Origin: a virus
IMG/VR virus record: IMGVR_UViG_3300042898_004604
Span: 1-30,163 of that record
Strand: one strand, 5' to 3'
Length of the DNA stretch: 30,163 bases
This document shows positions 9,264 through 26,316 of this stretch, piece after piece (position 1 is the stretch's first letter; each line of letters begins with the position of its first letter). The position numbers and the translations under genes are program-made. The notes beneath the pieces are model-generated. The model made no database searches and had not been told where the DNA came from. It saw only the letters and a list, made by a program, of their open reading frames with translations.

Positions 9264-10607
9264 ATGAAAATTCATAACTACACACAGTTTATCAGAGAAT
9301 CTAACGATCTATCAACCCATTATCTTCCAACTTATGAGGATTGTGCGGAAATGTGTGCAAAAGAAAATGCTGCTTTCTATGAGTCTAAGTTTGTGATTGA
9401 TGGTTATAATATTTCGGTATTCAATTATCGCCTCGCTCAATATAAAGATTTTGTAACACCACTTGAGAATAAGCCAGATGTTAAAGCATATGAAATGAGA
9501 GGTTTAACCTTTGTATTCAATGAAGATGGATCGTTGTTTAGAAGATTCTTATTGCTTGAAAAGTTCTTTAATCTTAATCAAGTTCCAGAGGCTATGTACT
9601 CTATCGTTAAAAACTATAAGATTAAGTTTATCAATAACAAAGAGGACGGATCTATTGCATCATTCATTAAACTACCAAATGGTAAAGTTTTAGGTAAATC
9701 TAAAATGGGATTTGATAATGAACAATCTAATGGTATTAATAGAATATACAGAACTAGAACAGATGTTAAGACATTTGTTGATTGGTGTTTAAATAACGAT
9801 ATCACTTCTATTTTTGAGTATGTTTCACCTGCTAATCGTATTGTTCTAAGATATTTAGATGAAGACCTTATACTTTTAAGAATGAGAGATAACACAACTG
9901 GTAAGCATCTTGATATTAAGAACTATCTTGATAAGATTGATACTATTAGAATTGCACCATTTGAAGATGATAATAAAGATTTAGATTCTTTAATAGAAGT
10001 TATAGCTAAAGAAGTTGATAAAGAAGGTGTTATTGTTCAAGCTGAAGATAAATATGGCAAGGATTTTTTCTTTAAGTTAAAAACTCCTTGGTATATGGAA
10101 CGCCATGGATTATTGACTAATGATATTTACAGAGAACATATCATTATCGGATATATTTTAGATGATAAGATTGATGATATTCTTGGACAAATACCAGAAG
10201 ATGAAAAAGAAGCACACTTGAGAATTAATAAAATAATTCAAATAGTTAAAAAGGCAATTAATGATAAATCTGTTGAGATAGAAAGGGCTTATAAAGATTA
10301 TATAAAATCTGGAATTTCAAGAAAAGATTATGCGATAAATCAAAGAAAAAGTAATATTAATTTTGCATTTGTGATGGAGATGGTCAAAGCTGATGATATG
10401 AGAAGGATGTCTAAAGAACAGATTATAGACCATTATGATTCTATGGAAGCTTATGAAAAATCATTAAAAAGATGCGAACCATATGAAATGGCTAAAGAGT
10501 GGTTAAGAGATCTAACCAAAAGATTGGCTATTTCAAGAGAGTGGTTAAAAACAAAAGATAAAACTTTGTTTTTTCAAGATCCAGACACTGAAAATGAAGA
10601 TAATTAA
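9264..10607 (+). CDS. rnlA: T4 Rnl1-type RNA ligase with N-terminal internal-protein-like tag
   Basis: ATP-dependent RNA ligase that seals 5'-phosphate/3'-hydroxyl ends; T4 Rnl1 repairs tRNA cut by host anticodon nuclease. Visible family marks: MRGLTFVF...LLLEKFFNLNQ (78-106), the nucleotidyl motif KEDGS with Lys126, KSKMGF (145-150), FEYVSPANRIVL (184-195), EGVIVQ (254-259) and KLKTPWY (271-277). These align with T4 Rnl1 segments such as KEDGS at Lys99 and FEFVAPTNRIVL. The protein is 447 residues against 374 in T4: about 20 extra N-terminal residues hold the tag MKIHNYTQFIRE with a protease-like site IRE, and the C-terminal domain is about 40 residues longer. It is followed at once by an intrinsic terminator. 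Enzymatic class is secure; packaging in the head is inference. Confidence 0.93.
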   Translation: MKIHNYTQFIRESNDLSTHYLPTYEDCAEMCAKENAAFYESKFVIDGYNISVFNYRLAQYKDFVTPLENKPDVKAYEMRGLTFVFNEDGSLFRRFLLLEKFFNLNQVPEAMYSIVKNYKIKFINNKEDGSIASFIKLPNGKVLGKSKMGFDNEQSNGINRIYRTRTDVKTFVDWCLNNDITSIFEYVSPANRIVLRYLDEDLILLRMRDNTTGKHLDIKNYLDKIDTIRIAPFEDDNKDLDSLIEVIAKEVDKEGVIVQAEDKYGKDFFFKLKTPWYMERHGLLTNDIYREHIIIGYILDDKIDDILGQIPEDEKEAHLRINKIIQIVKKAINDKSVEIERAYKDYIKSGISRKDYAINQRKSNINFAFVMEMVKADDMRRMSKEQIIDHYDSMEAYEKSLKRCEPYEMAKEWLRDLTKRLAISREWLKTKDKTLFFQDPDTENEDN

Positions 10608-12974: not shown

Positions 12975-14219
12975 TTACTCATCATCATCATCAAGATAGT
13001 CATATCCACCACCTGTATCGTTTAATAAACGATCAGCACTTACATCTTCCTTAGAGTTGCTTAACTCACCAGTACCACTATTAAGATAACATAGAGTATC
13101 GAGATATGGATAAGGCTCGTCTTCCCAGTGCTTTAAATCTACTATGTAGTCTGTAATTTTTGATTCATTTCCTCTCTCAGCTGTAAAATTACTACTAGAT
13201 GATTGATTTCTCTTACACCACCAGTTATTTTTACTTGCAAATTTCTTAAACAAATCAACATCAGAGTCATTGTTTGTGTAGATTCTATCCATTAAGATAT
13301 CTCCACTTCTTGTTGTCCAAAGTATTGCTCTTCCACAGATTTTATCAGAACGATATTGGCCGCCAACAATACTACCATTTTTAGACCACAAAACAACTAA
13401 CTTACAAACCTCTGGGTTATCTACATAGATATCAAATGTAGAATCCGGCATATCAGCCATACAAGATGATCCTAATGTACCATCATCACTTTCATAGTAA
13501 TCGTGATTATATAATTTTGAAATTGTAGAACCTTGTACTACTTCAAATCTACTAAATGCGTCGTTAATAATATCAATTGTGGCTTTATAATCATTTACAA
13601 ATTTCTCAATTTCTGAGTCACTTATGTTTGTATTTCCTGATCTATATAACGCTCTAACTAATCTTCCGATTCTTATTGGATTTCTTGATGTACCCCATAC
13701 TTTACTAAGAGTATCATCATGATCGGATAAAGCTTCTTTATTTATGACAGTTTTCATTCCTATATCAAAACTATTAGGACTCTGAATACATTCGAAATGA
13801 CAATATATTTTAGAATTTGATCCTACTATTTCTGATAGTATCTTACCAATAGTTCCAACTGTTGGTTTGTATATATCACCTTCAGGTCTTTCGAATCCAA
13901 GTTTATTGAATGTGTTTATATTAGAATCTGTATTTCTTAGAGTTCTACCACCTTGAGTAACTTTATAAAGTATCTCTCTACCACCAATAATTTCTTGAGC
14001 CTTTCTATCTGTTGTGAACATAACAGAATCATTGTCAGTACTTAAATCAATGAAGTTTTGTTGTAAATTTACATCTTTTGATCCTAAACTAATAAGATAA
14101 CTAGATACTGGCGATTGTATAGACTTTAAAACATTTAAAAACCCATTAGATAAAACCAATTTACTTTCTAGTAAAGCTTCTAATCTTTTTTCTGTTATAA
14201 ATTCTGAATAATTATACAT
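12975..14219 (-). CDS. tagged protein of unnamed phage family, 414 aa; putative internal head protein
   Basis: The N-terminus MYNYSEFITE has exactly the spacing of the T4 IPIII propeptide (MKTYQEFIAE), with a possible cleavage after Glu10 and another LxE site at LLE (residues 16-18). The body has a central NPIRIGRLVRAL...SDSEIEKFVNDYK segment (about 183-213) and a C-terminal domain with GTLGSSCMADMP, NPEVCKLVVLW, GRAILWTTRSGD and DRIYTNNDSDVDLF. I remember this C-terminal pattern from large phages but know no function; a conserved Cys after GSS makes a hydrolase or transferase conceivable. The acidic tail is encoded by a GAT-type run (ATC repeats near 12980). No late promoter is visible upstream. 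Confidence 0.85.
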   Translation of the reverse strand: MYNYSEFITEKRLEALLESKLVLSNGFLNVLKSIQSPVSSYLISLGSKDVNLQQNFIDLSTDNDSVMFTTDRKAQEIIGGREILYKVTQGGRTLRNTDSNINTFNKLGFERPEGDIYKPTVGTIGKILSEIVGSNSKIYCHFECIQSPNSFDIGMKTVINKEALSDHDDTLSKVWGTSRNPIRIGRLVRALYRSGNTNISDSEIEKFVNDYKATIDIINDAFSRFEVVQGSTISKLYNHDYYESDDGTLGSSCMADMPDSTFDIYVDNPEVCKLVVLWSKNGSIVGGQYRSDKICGRAILWTTRSGDILMDRIYTNNDSDVDLFKKFASKNNWWCKRNQSSSSNFTAERGNESKITDYIVDLKHWEDEPYPYLDTLCYLNSGTGELSNSKEDVSADRLLNDTGGGYDYLDDDDE

Positions 14220-19146: not shown

Positions 19147-19578
19147 ATGAAACATATTAAATCTTTCAACGAATCTGTTATAGAAAATGATATTCAATCA
19201 TTAAAGGACATATTTATACATTTAAAAGATGATGGATATAAAGTAGAATACTTTACAAAAAAAGTGGTTAATGATATTGGTACTCTTGTATCTTCGATAG
19301 GTGTAAAGATTACAAATCCTACGGATGTAAATCAAATAATTAATTTTACTTCTTATGATGTTGTATCTTCACTTAAAGAAGCGGTTTCTTTAATGCAATC
19401 ACTCGATTATAAATATCAAGCAAGATATGCATTACATGGATTTAGTCCAGATAGATTTTATATCTATTTGGATGAAAGAGATCTCACTCAGTATATTTGG
19501 AATGGCCTTAGTACTAAAGAATTTAAGATAGATGAAAAAACAAGGCCGCATACAATTTATTTAGATTTTTATATATAA
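19147..19578 (+). CDS. tagged protein 1 of array (module A), 143 aa
   Basis: First of four consecutive tagged genes. The start MKHIKSFNES gives a possible prohead-protease-like site FNE before Ser10. The remaining 130 residues form what I call module A: LKDIFIHLKDDGYKVE near the start and an ending of TRPHTIYLDFYI. The N-terminal half of the next gene has the same pattern (ISDIFVHVKDSGLVVE and SYLDLTF), so the two are paralogues. No known family recognised. Spacing to the next gene is three bases. Confidence 0.75.
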   Translation: MKHIKSFNESVIENDIQSLKDIFIHLKDDGYKVEYFTKKVVNDIGTLVSSIGVKITNPTDVNQIINFTSYDVVSSLKEAVSLMQSLDYKYQARYALHGFSPDRFYIYLDERDLTQYIWNGLSTKEFKIDEKTRPHTIYLDFYI

Positions 19579-19581
19579 GTT

Positions 19582-20505
19582 ATGAAACACATTAAAACAT
19601 ATAATTCATTCAAACTAAATGAAGAACTTGATATCGACATTGATGGTGTCGCAAATCAAAATATAATAGAGGAAATTTCCGATATATTTGTTCATGTGAA
19701 GGACTCTGGTCTTGTAGTTGAAGATGTTTATTCAGGGAGTGCTTTATCTATGGGTAATAGAGATATAGTTACAGATCATAATGATTTTTCATCGATTTTG
19801 GGATCAGATGGAAGATATGTGGGTAGTTATAAAAGTCTATCAATTAGATTAAAAAACGAAAATACGTCATCTTTTACTATAGAAGAAAATCTTTTTAGTG
19901 AATTAGAATCAGCAATTAAACATGTTGAATCTGAATTTAACTTACAGCTGAATAGTATTTATCTAAGAACTCTAGGTGGTGTTTGGTTTAATAGTGTCAA
20001 TACAATGGAAAGATATATTAATGAATTACCGTTTGCTAAAAAAAGTTCTCTAAGACATGTTTCTTATTTAGATTTAACATTTAGAGATATAGAAGAAGAT
20101 ATTGATGATTCTATAAGTGTTAAAGAATCGGTGAGTGTTAATGAACTTGAATCTATTTTTGATGATGTAAAAGATATTTTAAGAGATTTGGAAGATGATC
20201 ATGAAATAGATGTTGATGCTATTATCGGAAAATATAGAAAGTATTCTACAAAATCGTGGAAAGAATCGGATGATTCGGAACTAAAAAAATCAATTAATAT
20301 AGATTTAAAAGATAATAAATATAACTTTTTCAGATTCAATGATCACATATTACCCACTATAAAAAAACTTAGATCTTTTTTATCAGAATATGATTTAAAT
20401 ATTGATATTGAATTGGTAAGTGAAAATGAATTTTATTCATTGGATGAATTTATAGAAGAATATGGTAGTGAAGAATTTCACGAACTTGGAATAATAATTT
20501 ATTAA
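19582..20505 (+). CDS. tagged protein 2 of array (modules A+B), 307 aa
   Basis: Starts MKHIKTYNSFKLNEE, with an LNE site after residue 14. Residues about 30-170 match module A of the gene before (ISDIFVHVKDSGLVVE; ending HVSYLDLTF). Residues about 190-307 are module B (VKDILRDLEDDHEIDVDA, FNDHILPTIKKL, YSLDEFIEEYGSEEFHEL, ending IIIY), which is repeated in the next gene. It is therefore a two-module fusion within the array. The protein is very acidic. Function unknown. Confidence 0.75.
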   Translation: MKHIKTYNSFKLNEELDIDIDGVANQNIIEEISDIFVHVKDSGLVVEDVYSGSALSMGNRDIVTDHNDFSSILGSDGRYVGSYKSLSIRLKNENTSSFTIEENLFSELESAIKHVESEFNLQLNSIYLRTLGGVWFNSVNTMERYINELPFAKKSSLRHVSYLDLTFRDIEEDIDDSISVKESVSVNELESIFDDVKDILRDLEDDHEIDVDAIIGKYRKYSTKSWKESDDSELKKSINIDLKDNKYNFFRFNDHILPTIKKLRSFLSEYDLNIDIELVSENEFYSLDEFIEEYGSEEFHELGIIIY

Positions 20506-20520
20506 AATAATATATAATTT

Positions 20521-21015
20521 ATGAAATATTTAAAAAGATTTGAAAATTATAATGATTTAGAGGATGAAAATCTAAATAATAGAGATATAGAGGAGGATCT
20601 TTTAATAGTAAAGGATATCCTAACAGATTTAGAGGATTCTTATGAAATAAATTTTGATATATCTGTCGGAAAATTTTTTAAGGATTCTTCTGTTAGAAAT
20701 CTATGGGGATCAGTACCGGTAAGAGGAGGTATTCATGTTAATTCAATTAATATAAATTTAGATTTATTAACATTAGACGATCATTTAGGAGAAGAGGAAT
20801 CAGAGGAAGAAGGTAAATATTTTATATTTAATGAACAAATTTTACCTACTATAAATACGATTAAATCACATTTAGAGGAAGTAAATATTGTTATTGTTAA
20901 AAATATTGGCGATTTATTTTATGATAGCTCGAAAAACAAATATTATCCACTTGATGAATTCATCAGAGAACATGGAAGTGAAAAGTTTAATGAACTTGAA
21001 ATAATACTTTATTAA
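20521..21015 (+). CDS. tagged protein 3 of array (module B), 164 aa
   Basis: Starts MKYLKRFENYNDLED; the tag is present but the exact (L/I/F)xE site is less clear here. The body is module B: VKDILTDLEDSYEINFDI, FNEQILPTINTIKSH, YPLDEFIREHGSEKFNEL and an ending IILY, matching the second half of the preceding gene. Acidic and soluble. No function recognised; likely a duplicate that has diverged. Confidence 0.75.
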   Translation: MKYLKRFENYNDLEDENLNNRDIEEDLLIVKDILTDLEDSYEINFDISVGKFFKDSSVRNLWGSVPVRGGIHVNSININLDLLTLDDHLGEEESEEEGKYFIFNEQILPTINTIKSHLEEVNIVIVKNIGDLFYDSSKNKYYPLDEFIREHGSEKFNELEIILY

Positions 21016-21018
21016 TTT

Positions 21019-21498
21019 ATGAAATATTTAAAATCATTTAAAGAATCTAACGGATACATTAATCCAAAAATAATGGATAGAAAACCTCCACAATTTATTG
21101 GAGATATTAAACAATCAGTTGAAATTAGAATTGATGTTGAAGCTATTGGTCATGCTCTTTCAAGACAGTTTAGACATGGTGTTAATGATACTAGTGGTAA
21201 AATTGAAGCAGGAATAACAAAAGATGAAATACTAGATAATATTGAGTCGGCTGTTGAAGAATTAACAATTGCACTAATGCAGGATAGATTTGATATTTAT
21301 CAAGATGAAGATGATTATCCAACTCGTGGAGTTAAAGCAGGAGAGCCAAATAGATTTGTAATAAAGAATAAAGAATCTTATTTAAATATTGTTTGTCAAT
21401 TAGAACCAGGTGATAACGAATTTACATTAACTGTTATTACAGTTATGAGAAAAGAAGATTTCAAGGCTTATAGAGGCCAATTTGTATTAGAAGTTTAA
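21019..21498 (+). CDS. tagged protein 4 of array, possible small RNase/toxin-like fold, 159 aa
   Basis: Starts MKYLKSFKES with a possible FKE site before Ser10, three bases after the preceding gene. The body differs from modules A and B: VEIRIDVEAIGHALSRQF, ITKDEILDNIESAVEEL, RFVIKNKESYLNIVCQLE and FTLTVITVMRKEDF. The order (His/Arg-bearing helix, helix, then beta strands with an ITV-type strand) recalls DUF4258/BECR-type small nuclease domains, but no catalytic set can be proven by eye. It overlaps the convergent GMP reductase by four bases. Confidence 0.75.
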   Translation: MKYLKSFKESNGYINPKIMDRKPPQFIGDIKQSVEIRIDVEAIGHALSRQFRHGVNDTSGKIEAGITKDEILDNIESAVEELTIALMQDRFDIYQDEDDYPTRGVKAGEPNRFVIKNKESYLNIVCQLEPGDNEFTLTVITVMRKEDFKAYRGQFVLEV

Positions 21499-25117: not shown

Positions 25118-25654
25118 ATGATGAAAAAGTATTTAGAATTTATAAAAGAAGCAAAATCACGATATGAATACGGATGTGTTATGGTTGATTTCAGTTTTGC
25201 TAACTGGTCAGAATTATTAGAATCAATAGATTCTGATGATGTTTATAAAGTTGAGGGTAAAAATTATGGACTACAACCAAGACCACACCTAACATTATTA
25301 TATGGTATACATGATACTGTAAGTGATGAGGAAATATTAAATTGTTTTGATGGATTCACAGAAGATGATTTTAAAGTTCAATTAGATGGTGTCTCTATAT
25401 TTGAAAATCCAGAATTTGATGTTGTTAAACTTGGTGTTGTTTTAACTCCTAGAATTAAAGAAATAAATAAAAGACTATCTGATCTACCTAACTCAAATCA
25501 GTTTCCGGAATATAAGCCACATATCACTTTGGCATATGTTAAAAAAGGTCTAGGTAAAAAATATGTTAATCCTGATTATAAATATGAAATTAAAACCATA
25601 TCAAAAATTGTTTATACAAGACCAGATACTACCGAATTAAATATTCAACTATGA
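25118..25654 (+). CDS. tagged 2H phosphoesterase (2'-5' RNA ligase / cyclic phosphodiesterase superfamily)
   Basis: The 2H superfamily hydrolyses 2',3'-cyclic phosphates or cyclic oligonucleotides with two HxT motifs. Both are present: RPHLTLLYG with His57/Thr59 and KPHITLAYV with His135/Thr137, at typical spacing for a 178-residue protein. Counting from the second ATG (25121) the start is MKKYLEFIKEA, matching the T4 IPIII start MKTYQEFIAEA at eight of eleven positions, including the cleavage-site spacing. The mature domain would begin at Ala11. Possible roles are RNA end healing with the tagged RNA ligase, or degradation of host immune cyclic nucleotides as shown for T4 Acb1, itself a 2H enzyme. 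Which substrate is unknown. Overlaps the next gene by four bases. Confidence 0.88.
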   Translation: MMKKYLEFIKEAKSRYEYGCVMVDFSFANWSELLESIDSDDVYKVEGKNYGLQPRPHLTLLYGIHDTVSDEEILNCFDGFTEDDFKVQLDGVSIFENPEFDVVKLGVVLTPRIKEINKRLSDLPNSNQFPEYKPHITLAYVKKGLGKKYVNPDYKYEIKTISKIVYTRPDTTELNIQL

Positions 25655-26316
25655 AAATAAAAACATTCAAATTATTTGAATCAAGTTCGGAAGACTATTT
25701 TCCATCTTTAGAAGAGGTTAAAGACTATTTTTACGATTTTACTGATGAATTAGATATAAATATTAATTATTTTCAATCTGGATATAAATACTTTTTAAAA
25801 CCTTACAATGTTTATCAATCAGGTAATAACTTTGGTATTATTTTGAAAGATAAATCAAATTATATTGATATTATAAATACAGATTTATCAAACACAAGAT
25901 TACAATTATCCTCTGGATATGCTACGATAGACAGTTATAATAGAGGAAAAGAGGAATGGACAGATTCAACAATCTATGCTATAAAAAATGGAGCTAAAGT
26001 ATATAATCACATTATGTTTGAATTTAGTGATTATTCTTTTAGAGAAGAATACTTACCAAGATTAGTAGAGTGTTTAAAAAGATTTTATAATGAAACCAAT
26101 TTCAGACCTTACGGTGAGATTTGGACAGAAGAAAGGGCTGTGAGATACGGTGTTATAGACCAAGACTCAGGAATTGAAACTGGAGATGAAACCGTATTAC
26201 TTTATGGATTTTCTGGATTATTTGTGGATTGTTCGGACGAAGAGTACAGAAAACTATGTGAAATATATAGGGAAGACCGTGAAAATAATGATCTAATAAC
26301 TAAATATTTTATTTAA
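25651..26316 (+). CDS. tagged protein, module-B-like, 221 aa
   Basis: Starts MKIKTFKLFESS, with an LFE site before Ser11. The start of the body (VKDYFYDFTDELDININYF) and a later YLPRLVECLKRFYNET recall module B of the array at 19582-21015, so it may be a more distant relative. Remaining parts (YDGEIW-like region, GDETVLLYGFSGLFVDCSDEEY) are unassigned. It overlaps the 2H phosphoesterase gene by four bases, making the two a coupled pair of tagged genes. Confidence 0.75.
   Translation: MKIKTFKLFESSSEDYFPSLEEVKDYFYDFTDELDININYFQSGYKYFLKPYNVYQSGNNFGIILKDKSNYIDIINTDLSNTRLQLSSGYATIDSYNRGKEEWTDSTIYAIKNGAKVYNHIMFEFSDYSFREEYLPRLVECLKRFYNETNFRPYGEIWTEERAVRYGVIDQDSGIETGDETVLLYGFSGLFVDCSDEEYRKLCEIYREDRENNDLITKYFI

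Follow-up and report, generated by a model that had tools for sequence, protein, structure and literature searches.

What lies at the locus?

The window, by which we mean the whole 30,163-nucleotide stretch of viral DNA that was analysed (IMG/VR record IMGVR_UViG_3300042898_004604), carries a gene that encodes a 2H phosphoesterase with intact catalytic residues and a predicted activity (Table 1). A sequence-only reading had deduced a 2H enzyme from two HxT motifs, and this is now confirmed by the open reading frame and motifs read directly from the DNA, by Pfam and by an AF2 model. The protein matches PF13563 (2_5_RNA_ligase2) at E 1.2e-8 (35.5 bits against a cut-off of 27) and, more weakly, the LigT and Acb1 models of Pfam; no PADLOC model matched it. 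The best 80 of 442 relatives from a scan of IMG/VR were retained, and 61 solo or N-terminal copies were aligned. Far from being lost in relatives, both histidines are kept in 61/61 homologues: H57, T59, H135 and T137 are invariant, as are C20, G63, F95, V102, K104, Y132, P134 and Y140, and the family has conserved motifs of its own (GCxM, FDVxK and KxGxGxKY). The overlapping downstream gene is probably cotranscribed with the 2H gene.

Table 1. Coordinates of the 2H gene, its motifs and the other tagged or tag-like genes of the window
Feature	Position	Strand	Basis or remark
2H phosphoesterase gene with N-terminal tag	25118..25654	+	ATG start, 178 aa
Putative T4-type capsid-targeting tag MKKYLEFIKE, residues 2-11	25121..25150	+	T4 IPIII/IPII match, T4-derived pattern
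Catalytic motif 1, His57-Leu-Thr59 (PHLT)	25286..25294	+	read directly from DNA
Catalytic motif 2, His135-Ile-Thr137 (PHIT)	25520..25528	+	read directly from DNA
Overlapping downstream gene, shorter tag-like start MKIKTFKLFES	25651..26316	+	ATGA overlap with 2H gene
Tagged T4 Rnl1-family RNA ligase, MKIHNYTQFIRES	9264..10607	+	PF09511 E 3e-18; PHROG 562 E 3e-55; KEDGS nucleotidyl-transfer motif
Tagged protein MYNYSEFITEK, 414 aa	12975..14219	-	strict tag; no convincing family (Pfam, PHROGs)

Elsewhere in the window, four consecutive genes at 19147-21498 (+) have short MK[HY][IL]K-x-[FY] starts (MKHIKSFNES, MKHIKTYNSF, MKYLKRFENY and MKYLKSFKES), which may be either another style of tag or the mark of a family of small cargo proteins.

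What does the fold say about the substrate?

The AF2 model is confident (pLDDT 91.9), with the 2H fold beginning near residue 15 and residues 1-14, mostly at pLDDT <50, lying outside it. Comparison of the model with known 2H structures, a check that had been put forward with Acb1 and CPDases/ThpR in mind, upheld the 2H fold and left its families tied: VIA-align gives Z scores of 12-13 for several 2H enzymes across ~150 residues, and Z 11-13 spans the avian-pox cGAMP PDE, an archaeal 2'-5' RNA ligase-like protein, Usb1, CPDase, Acb1 and LigT. Because all 2H families score alike, the fold cannot choose the substrate, and fold ranking was rejected as a criterion for it. Profile scores are also nearly level, at 21.8 bits for Acb1, 21.0 for a BCSR5 phage enzyme filed as Acb1 and 19.8 for archaeal PH0099. 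The window protein matches TIGR02258 (ThpR) at 2e-7, where its 31 bits do not reach the equivalog cut-off of 65.7, and a sequence search of the PDB with the single protein gave a weak Acb1 match only.

What is the N-terminal extension?

We read the N-terminal tag as a capsid-targeting sequence of the T4 kind, which would make the enzyme a packaged protein, with a predicted cut after I-K-E and before Ala12. In the T4 record IPIII and IPII both begin MKTYQEFIAEA, and the window 2H protein, taken from its second Met (MKKYLEFIKEA), is identical to IPIII at 8/11 positions, a match that holds only if the first of the two Met codons is skipped or counted as an extra residue. The claim that this start is the window's closest match to IPIII holds good, the runner-up gene reaching 6/11 and the RNA ligase 4/11, and such a match arose in none of 3000 rounds of shuffling the N-termini of 34 genes. 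Tag positions 4, 7, 8 and 10 matter for targeting and processing in T4 (PMC9026906), and the window tag has all four conserved. A strict pattern derived from T4 alone (aromatic-x-x-aromatic-aliphatic-x-E) occurs at the start of 3/39 window ORFs, against 0.09 expected by shuffling, and at 0/109 internal Met sites; these three encode the 2H enzyme, the Rnl1-family ligase (9264) and the protein at 12975. A looser pattern, which was barely or not at all enriched in distant loci, had been discarded in favour of this T4-only form.

The closest relatives of the 2H protein come from an IMG/VR contig (72% identity) and from the phages LR745206 and LR756502 (634-642 kb, 52%). Genomes of the size of these two phages are assigned to the Mahaphage clade, with Bacteroidetes hosts, in PMC7162821, and the window phage may belong there as well. 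All 11 clade 2H proteins have the strict T4 tag, whereas distant homologues (in Maribacter phage Colly_1, LR756508 and LR756504) are untagged and start at or near the catalytic domain, and for this reason we regard the tag, on sequence grounds, as an add-on module. At one locus (region L006:1202-10248) an untagged 2H gene is surrounded by several paralogous ORFs with MKLKxxLxxLLSE-type starts, an LLxE style of tag.

Which other proteins share the tag, or the 2H domain?

The sequence-only reading also spoke of a tagged RNA ligase, and the window indeed encodes one, an Rnl1-family enzyme whose start fits the strict T4 pattern. Across the clade, 7/8 Rnl1 ligases have the strict tag, and those of more distant phages are untagged. 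The clade's PolyA_pol/CCA-adding family enzyme has the strict form in 2/8 and a relaxed form, chosen after viewing the tag alignments, in 8/8, while the DEDDh exonuclease, where it is a separate gene, has the relaxed form in 3/3 (L015, L016 and LR756502), lying ~1 kb downstream of the 2H gene in L015 and L016. Were tags scattered at random at LR745206 rates, the probability of finding a tag on all of three named enzymes is 0.0003-0.004, a guide only, because the enzymes were picked after the fact. The PNK-like AAA_33 kinase and the adenylate kinase of the clade are untagged; the latter, which lies beside Rnl1, was at first considered as a PNK, a reading rejected because of its sequence. In one relative (L187, G002:C1:279023), unlike the others examined, the PNK-like kinase forms the rear part of a fusion whose N-terminal region has the tag-like start MKIKKFNQFNTSE.

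Tag-like starts are not confined to these enzymes. In LR745206 (634 kb, L128-L159) a loose pattern is found in 136/833 ORFs, with ~24 expected by chance, so that the injected repertoire of this phage may be very large and consist mostly of proteins without known function; among ten large tagged LR745206 proteins almost nothing could be named by Pfam or PHROGs. Tagged ORFs resembling the window protein at 12975-14219 occur in G001 (L162 14119-15357) and LR745206 (L151 15547-16803 and L132 10898-12298). A further tagged protein, 663 aa long (L133:5637-7625, -), resembles DHH phosphoesterases weakly (E 2e-4, under the cut-off), and cyclic or short oligonucleotides may be its substrates.

The 2H domain is also found in fusions. 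All six giant 2H proteins (685-2398 aa) that were run in Pfam contain PolyA_pol and tRNA-nucleotidyltransferase domains, though CCA-adding enzymes and poly(A) polymerases, which share a superfamily, are not separable by Pfam alone, and because 2/6 also contain an ART-PolyVal (ADP-ribosyltransferase) domain, the partners are not RNA enzymes alone. In L042 and L071 a PolyA_pol match lies, by position, just upstream of the 2H domain in the same long frame, and in L076 the domain order is reversed. A 2H-DEDDh exonuclease fusion is present in LR745206, L010 and L011, where a remnant of the exonuclease tag persists at the junction (SINEN/SLNEN-KMWYK). In the tree, a single origin would account for the CCA-fused rows, and the nearest neighbour of every exonuclease-fused row is unfused. 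Both kinds of partner work at nucleic-acid 3' ends; PF00929 exonucleases are able to act on DNA.

How might a prohead read the tag?

A gp21-like prohead protease was sought among the relatives and scored above the cut-off in 7/18 records; none was seen in the 30 kb window, which is a genome fragment. The match lies in an ORF of ~700 aa in the closest relatives (LR745206, LR756502, G002 and G004) and of ~600 aa in G007. In the four closest it is weak (20-23 bits), and their GEFDHP and VSSRA motifs, at the front of the protease, resemble GELNHP and VSSRG of T4 gp21. In a further locus (L169, G014:C1:62500-66500) the protease frame is split, with an intein-like stretch between the halves.

The tail of this protein has 11-12 tandem repeats of the YSEY[IL]AE type (6 in G007), where ~0.2 would be expected, spaced mostly 14 residues apart in LR745206, LR756502, G002 and G004. 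These repeats, such as YSEYLAENLDKNI (L165, L166, L167 and L168 from LR745206, LR756502, G004 and G002, and L170 from G007), are the capsid tag motif, [IL]xE cut site included, and they make the protease with its repeat tail a candidate scaffold of huge phages. In five phages with LLxE-type tags, YSEY[IL]AE-type repeats were absent from the ORFs around the protease. Tag type thus appears to covary with scaffold repeat type, which is suggestive because the independent lineages are few. A 2017 study remarked that giant phages had so far yielded no confirmed counterpart of the T4 scaffold (PMC5694885).

What is the enzyme likely to do?

The reading that we favour, and consider about evenly balanced between right and wrong, is that the tagged 2H enzyme is packaged, cleaved and injected, and heals RNA 3' ends within a tagged repair set; packaging, cleavage, injection, substrate, tRNA target and the enzyme activity itself are steps that we infer. 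The tag helix would enter the prohead core by way of the motif that recurs in the protease-scaffold protein, the gp21-like protease would cleave the tag after [IL]xE, and the mature enzyme would be loaded into the head and then injected; it is reasonable to suppose that the protein arrives with the DNA. In the cell it would open the 2',3'-cyclic phosphates made by host ribonucleases, most likely on tRNA, as part of a pre-made set with the Rnl1 ligase, the CCA-adding/PolyA_pol-family nucleotidyltransferase and the DEDDh exonuclease. We take the 2H enzyme for one tool of such an injected kit because the relatives' Rnl1, CCA-type enzyme and 3' exonuclease share its tag, and we favour 3'-end healing because the CCA-type nucleotidyltransferase and the exonuclease share its tag and are fused to some of its homologues.

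The sequence-only reading had the 2H enzyme opening a cyclic phosphate for the tagged ligase, and while the fusions and shared tags speak for the RNA-end role, the chemistry is incomplete. Products of the 2H enzymes characterised to date carry a 2'- or 3'-monophosphate, and Rnl1 requires a 3'-OH. A phosphatase or trimming step is therefore required, since the monophosphate would be unusable by Rnl1 or the CCA enzyme. For Acb1, the product is GpAp[3'] (PMC9117128). No phosphatase for the 2H-derived monophosphate is confirmed and there are candidates only: a tagged LR745206 protein (L134:4617-5669, +) has the HAD-like motifs FDWDDN and ITARGH, without Pfam support, and is a candidate for the phosphatase of the set. 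In LR756504 the gene immediately upstream of the 2H gene, which is untagged there, encodes an NT5C-type HAD phosphatase. RtcB was sought in ten relatives and found in 0/10, and so ATP-dependent end-healing would be needed. Counting against the repair reading are the Acb1 profile, which is slightly nearer than that of the archaeal 2'-5' RNA ligase-like proteins, and the simpler role that the clade's CCA-type enzyme may have in maturing phage tRNAs: LR745206 has ~59 tRNA genes with CCA encoded in 6/53 checked, so this enzyme has work regardless. The ART-PolyVal domain in two of the fused giants and the capacity of PF00929 exonucleases to act on DNA weigh in the same direction. In addition, Iyer et al. 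2017 (PMC5512222) reported never finding solo polyvalent-type phage 2H proteins linked to RNA ligases.

The main rival, which we judge unlikely, is a packaged anti-CBASS enzyme, that is, a divergent Acb1-like nuclease that would arrive with the DNA and linearise cyclic di- or trinucleotides before abortive infection, and such counter-signalling would indeed profit from early arrival. The best Foldseek match is Acb1 (7t27, 5.6e-6), followed by BCSR5 Acb1 (9q2g/9q2y), profile comparison with T4-type Acb1 gives 96% probability, the 2H protein is the sole Acb1-matching protein in each of ten relatives, and the Acb1 model PF23474 is matched by 59/61 members at E<=1e-3, compared with 57/61 for the 2'-5' RNA ligase model. 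The window protein nevertheless falls below the PF23474 cut-off (24.1 against 27 bits), which several relatives exceed, and the Acb1, cGAMP PDE, Usb1, LigT and CPDase folds are tied. Of the base-stacking aromatics of Acb1, W74 and F107 line up with F95 (61/61) and F129 (F or Y in 60/61) of the window family; W147, Y12 (which is probably at an invariant Cys) and the adenine-reading E141 fall outside the aligned block. Moreover, the fusion partners are enzymes of RNA 3' ends and not signalling-related domains.

We find it quite improbable that the protein trims RNA as a Usb1-like RNase or 3' exonuclease, or that it breaks down 2'-5' or other linear signal nucleotides. Usb1 structures do tie for the best Z (12.6), and Iyer et al. 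2017 (PMC5512222) proposed that the 2H domains of phage polyvalent proteins serve as a Usb1-like RNase or remove 2'-5' oligoadenylate; against this, no Usb1-specific feature was found, the conserved motifs being the family's own. A very improbable reading, in our view, is that the tag is a coincidental amphipathic N-terminus or a signal for some other phage compartment, with an enzyme that acts only after expression in the cell. A literature search found no virion proteomics for this clade, and ~100 or more loosely tagged ORFs in LR745206 would make a very large cargo, both of which lean that way. The 8/11 identity to IPIII, including the four positions that matter in T4, and the recurrence of the motif 11-12 times in the protease-scaffold protein argue for a capsid signal instead, as does the absence of the tag from the window's topoisomerase, RNase H/5'-3' exonuclease, NusG, HSP70, GrpE, DnaJ, IMPDH and gp32 genes.

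Extending the repair reading from this enzyme to the clade, we think it possible, if somewhat doubtful, that huge Bacteroidetes phages package the 2H enzyme, Rnl1, CCA-type nucleotidyltransferase and 3' exonuclease as a complete RNA (tRNA) repair kit, by means of a tag that imitates the 14-residue repeat of the protease-scaffold protein; by such imitation any gene would become cargo with ~12 added codons.

Why would it matter, and how does it compare with known systems?

Anticodon nucleases and other abortive RNases of the host strike early in infection, at a time when phage genes are not yet expressed, and T4, the classic case, makes its own repair enzymes only after entry. If our reading is right, ready-made RNA repair enzymes would protect the phage from the first minute, the resemblance of the tag to the scaffold repeat would account for the way in which capsid-targeting sequences are recognised, and a simple rule would be at hand to predict injected proteins from huge-phage genomes.

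The closest parallel for the tag is T4 IPII/IPIII, with the same N-terminal MKxYxEFIxE followed by a small residue, 8/11 identical positions and the [IL]xE cut motif; the window cargo differs in being a conserved enzyme and not a small T4-specific internal protein, and its packaging is predicted. The Acb1 enzymes of T4, FBB1 and BCSR5 share the 2H fold, the HxT pair, aromatics at the W74/F107 sites and a phage origin, whereas T4 Acb1 is untagged and the window protein stays below the Pfam cut-off, has no equivalents of E141/W147 that were found, and keeps the company of RNA enzymes. The ThpR/LigT RNA 2',3'-cyclic phosphodiesterases likewise share the fold and the HxT pair and match through TIGR02258, although the window protein is far under the equivalog threshold. 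Like the 2H domains of phage polyvalent proteins described by Iyer et al. 2017 (PMC5512222), close homologues of the window protein are embedded in proteins of 685-2571 aa, with ART-PolyVal in 2/6 examined; the window form is solo and tagged, and the accessible text of that paper makes no mention of a fusion to a CCA-type nucleotidyltransferase. Finally, Rnl1, a CCA-adding enzyme and 2H proteins are already named as parts of jumbo-phage RNA repair sets in the accessible portion of Iyer et al. 2021 (PMC7824862), which describes no packaging signal, while here the parts share one tag. What our analysis contributes beyond this earlier work is the packaging tag common to these enzymes, the fusions to CCA-type enzymes and the repeats of the candidate scaffold.
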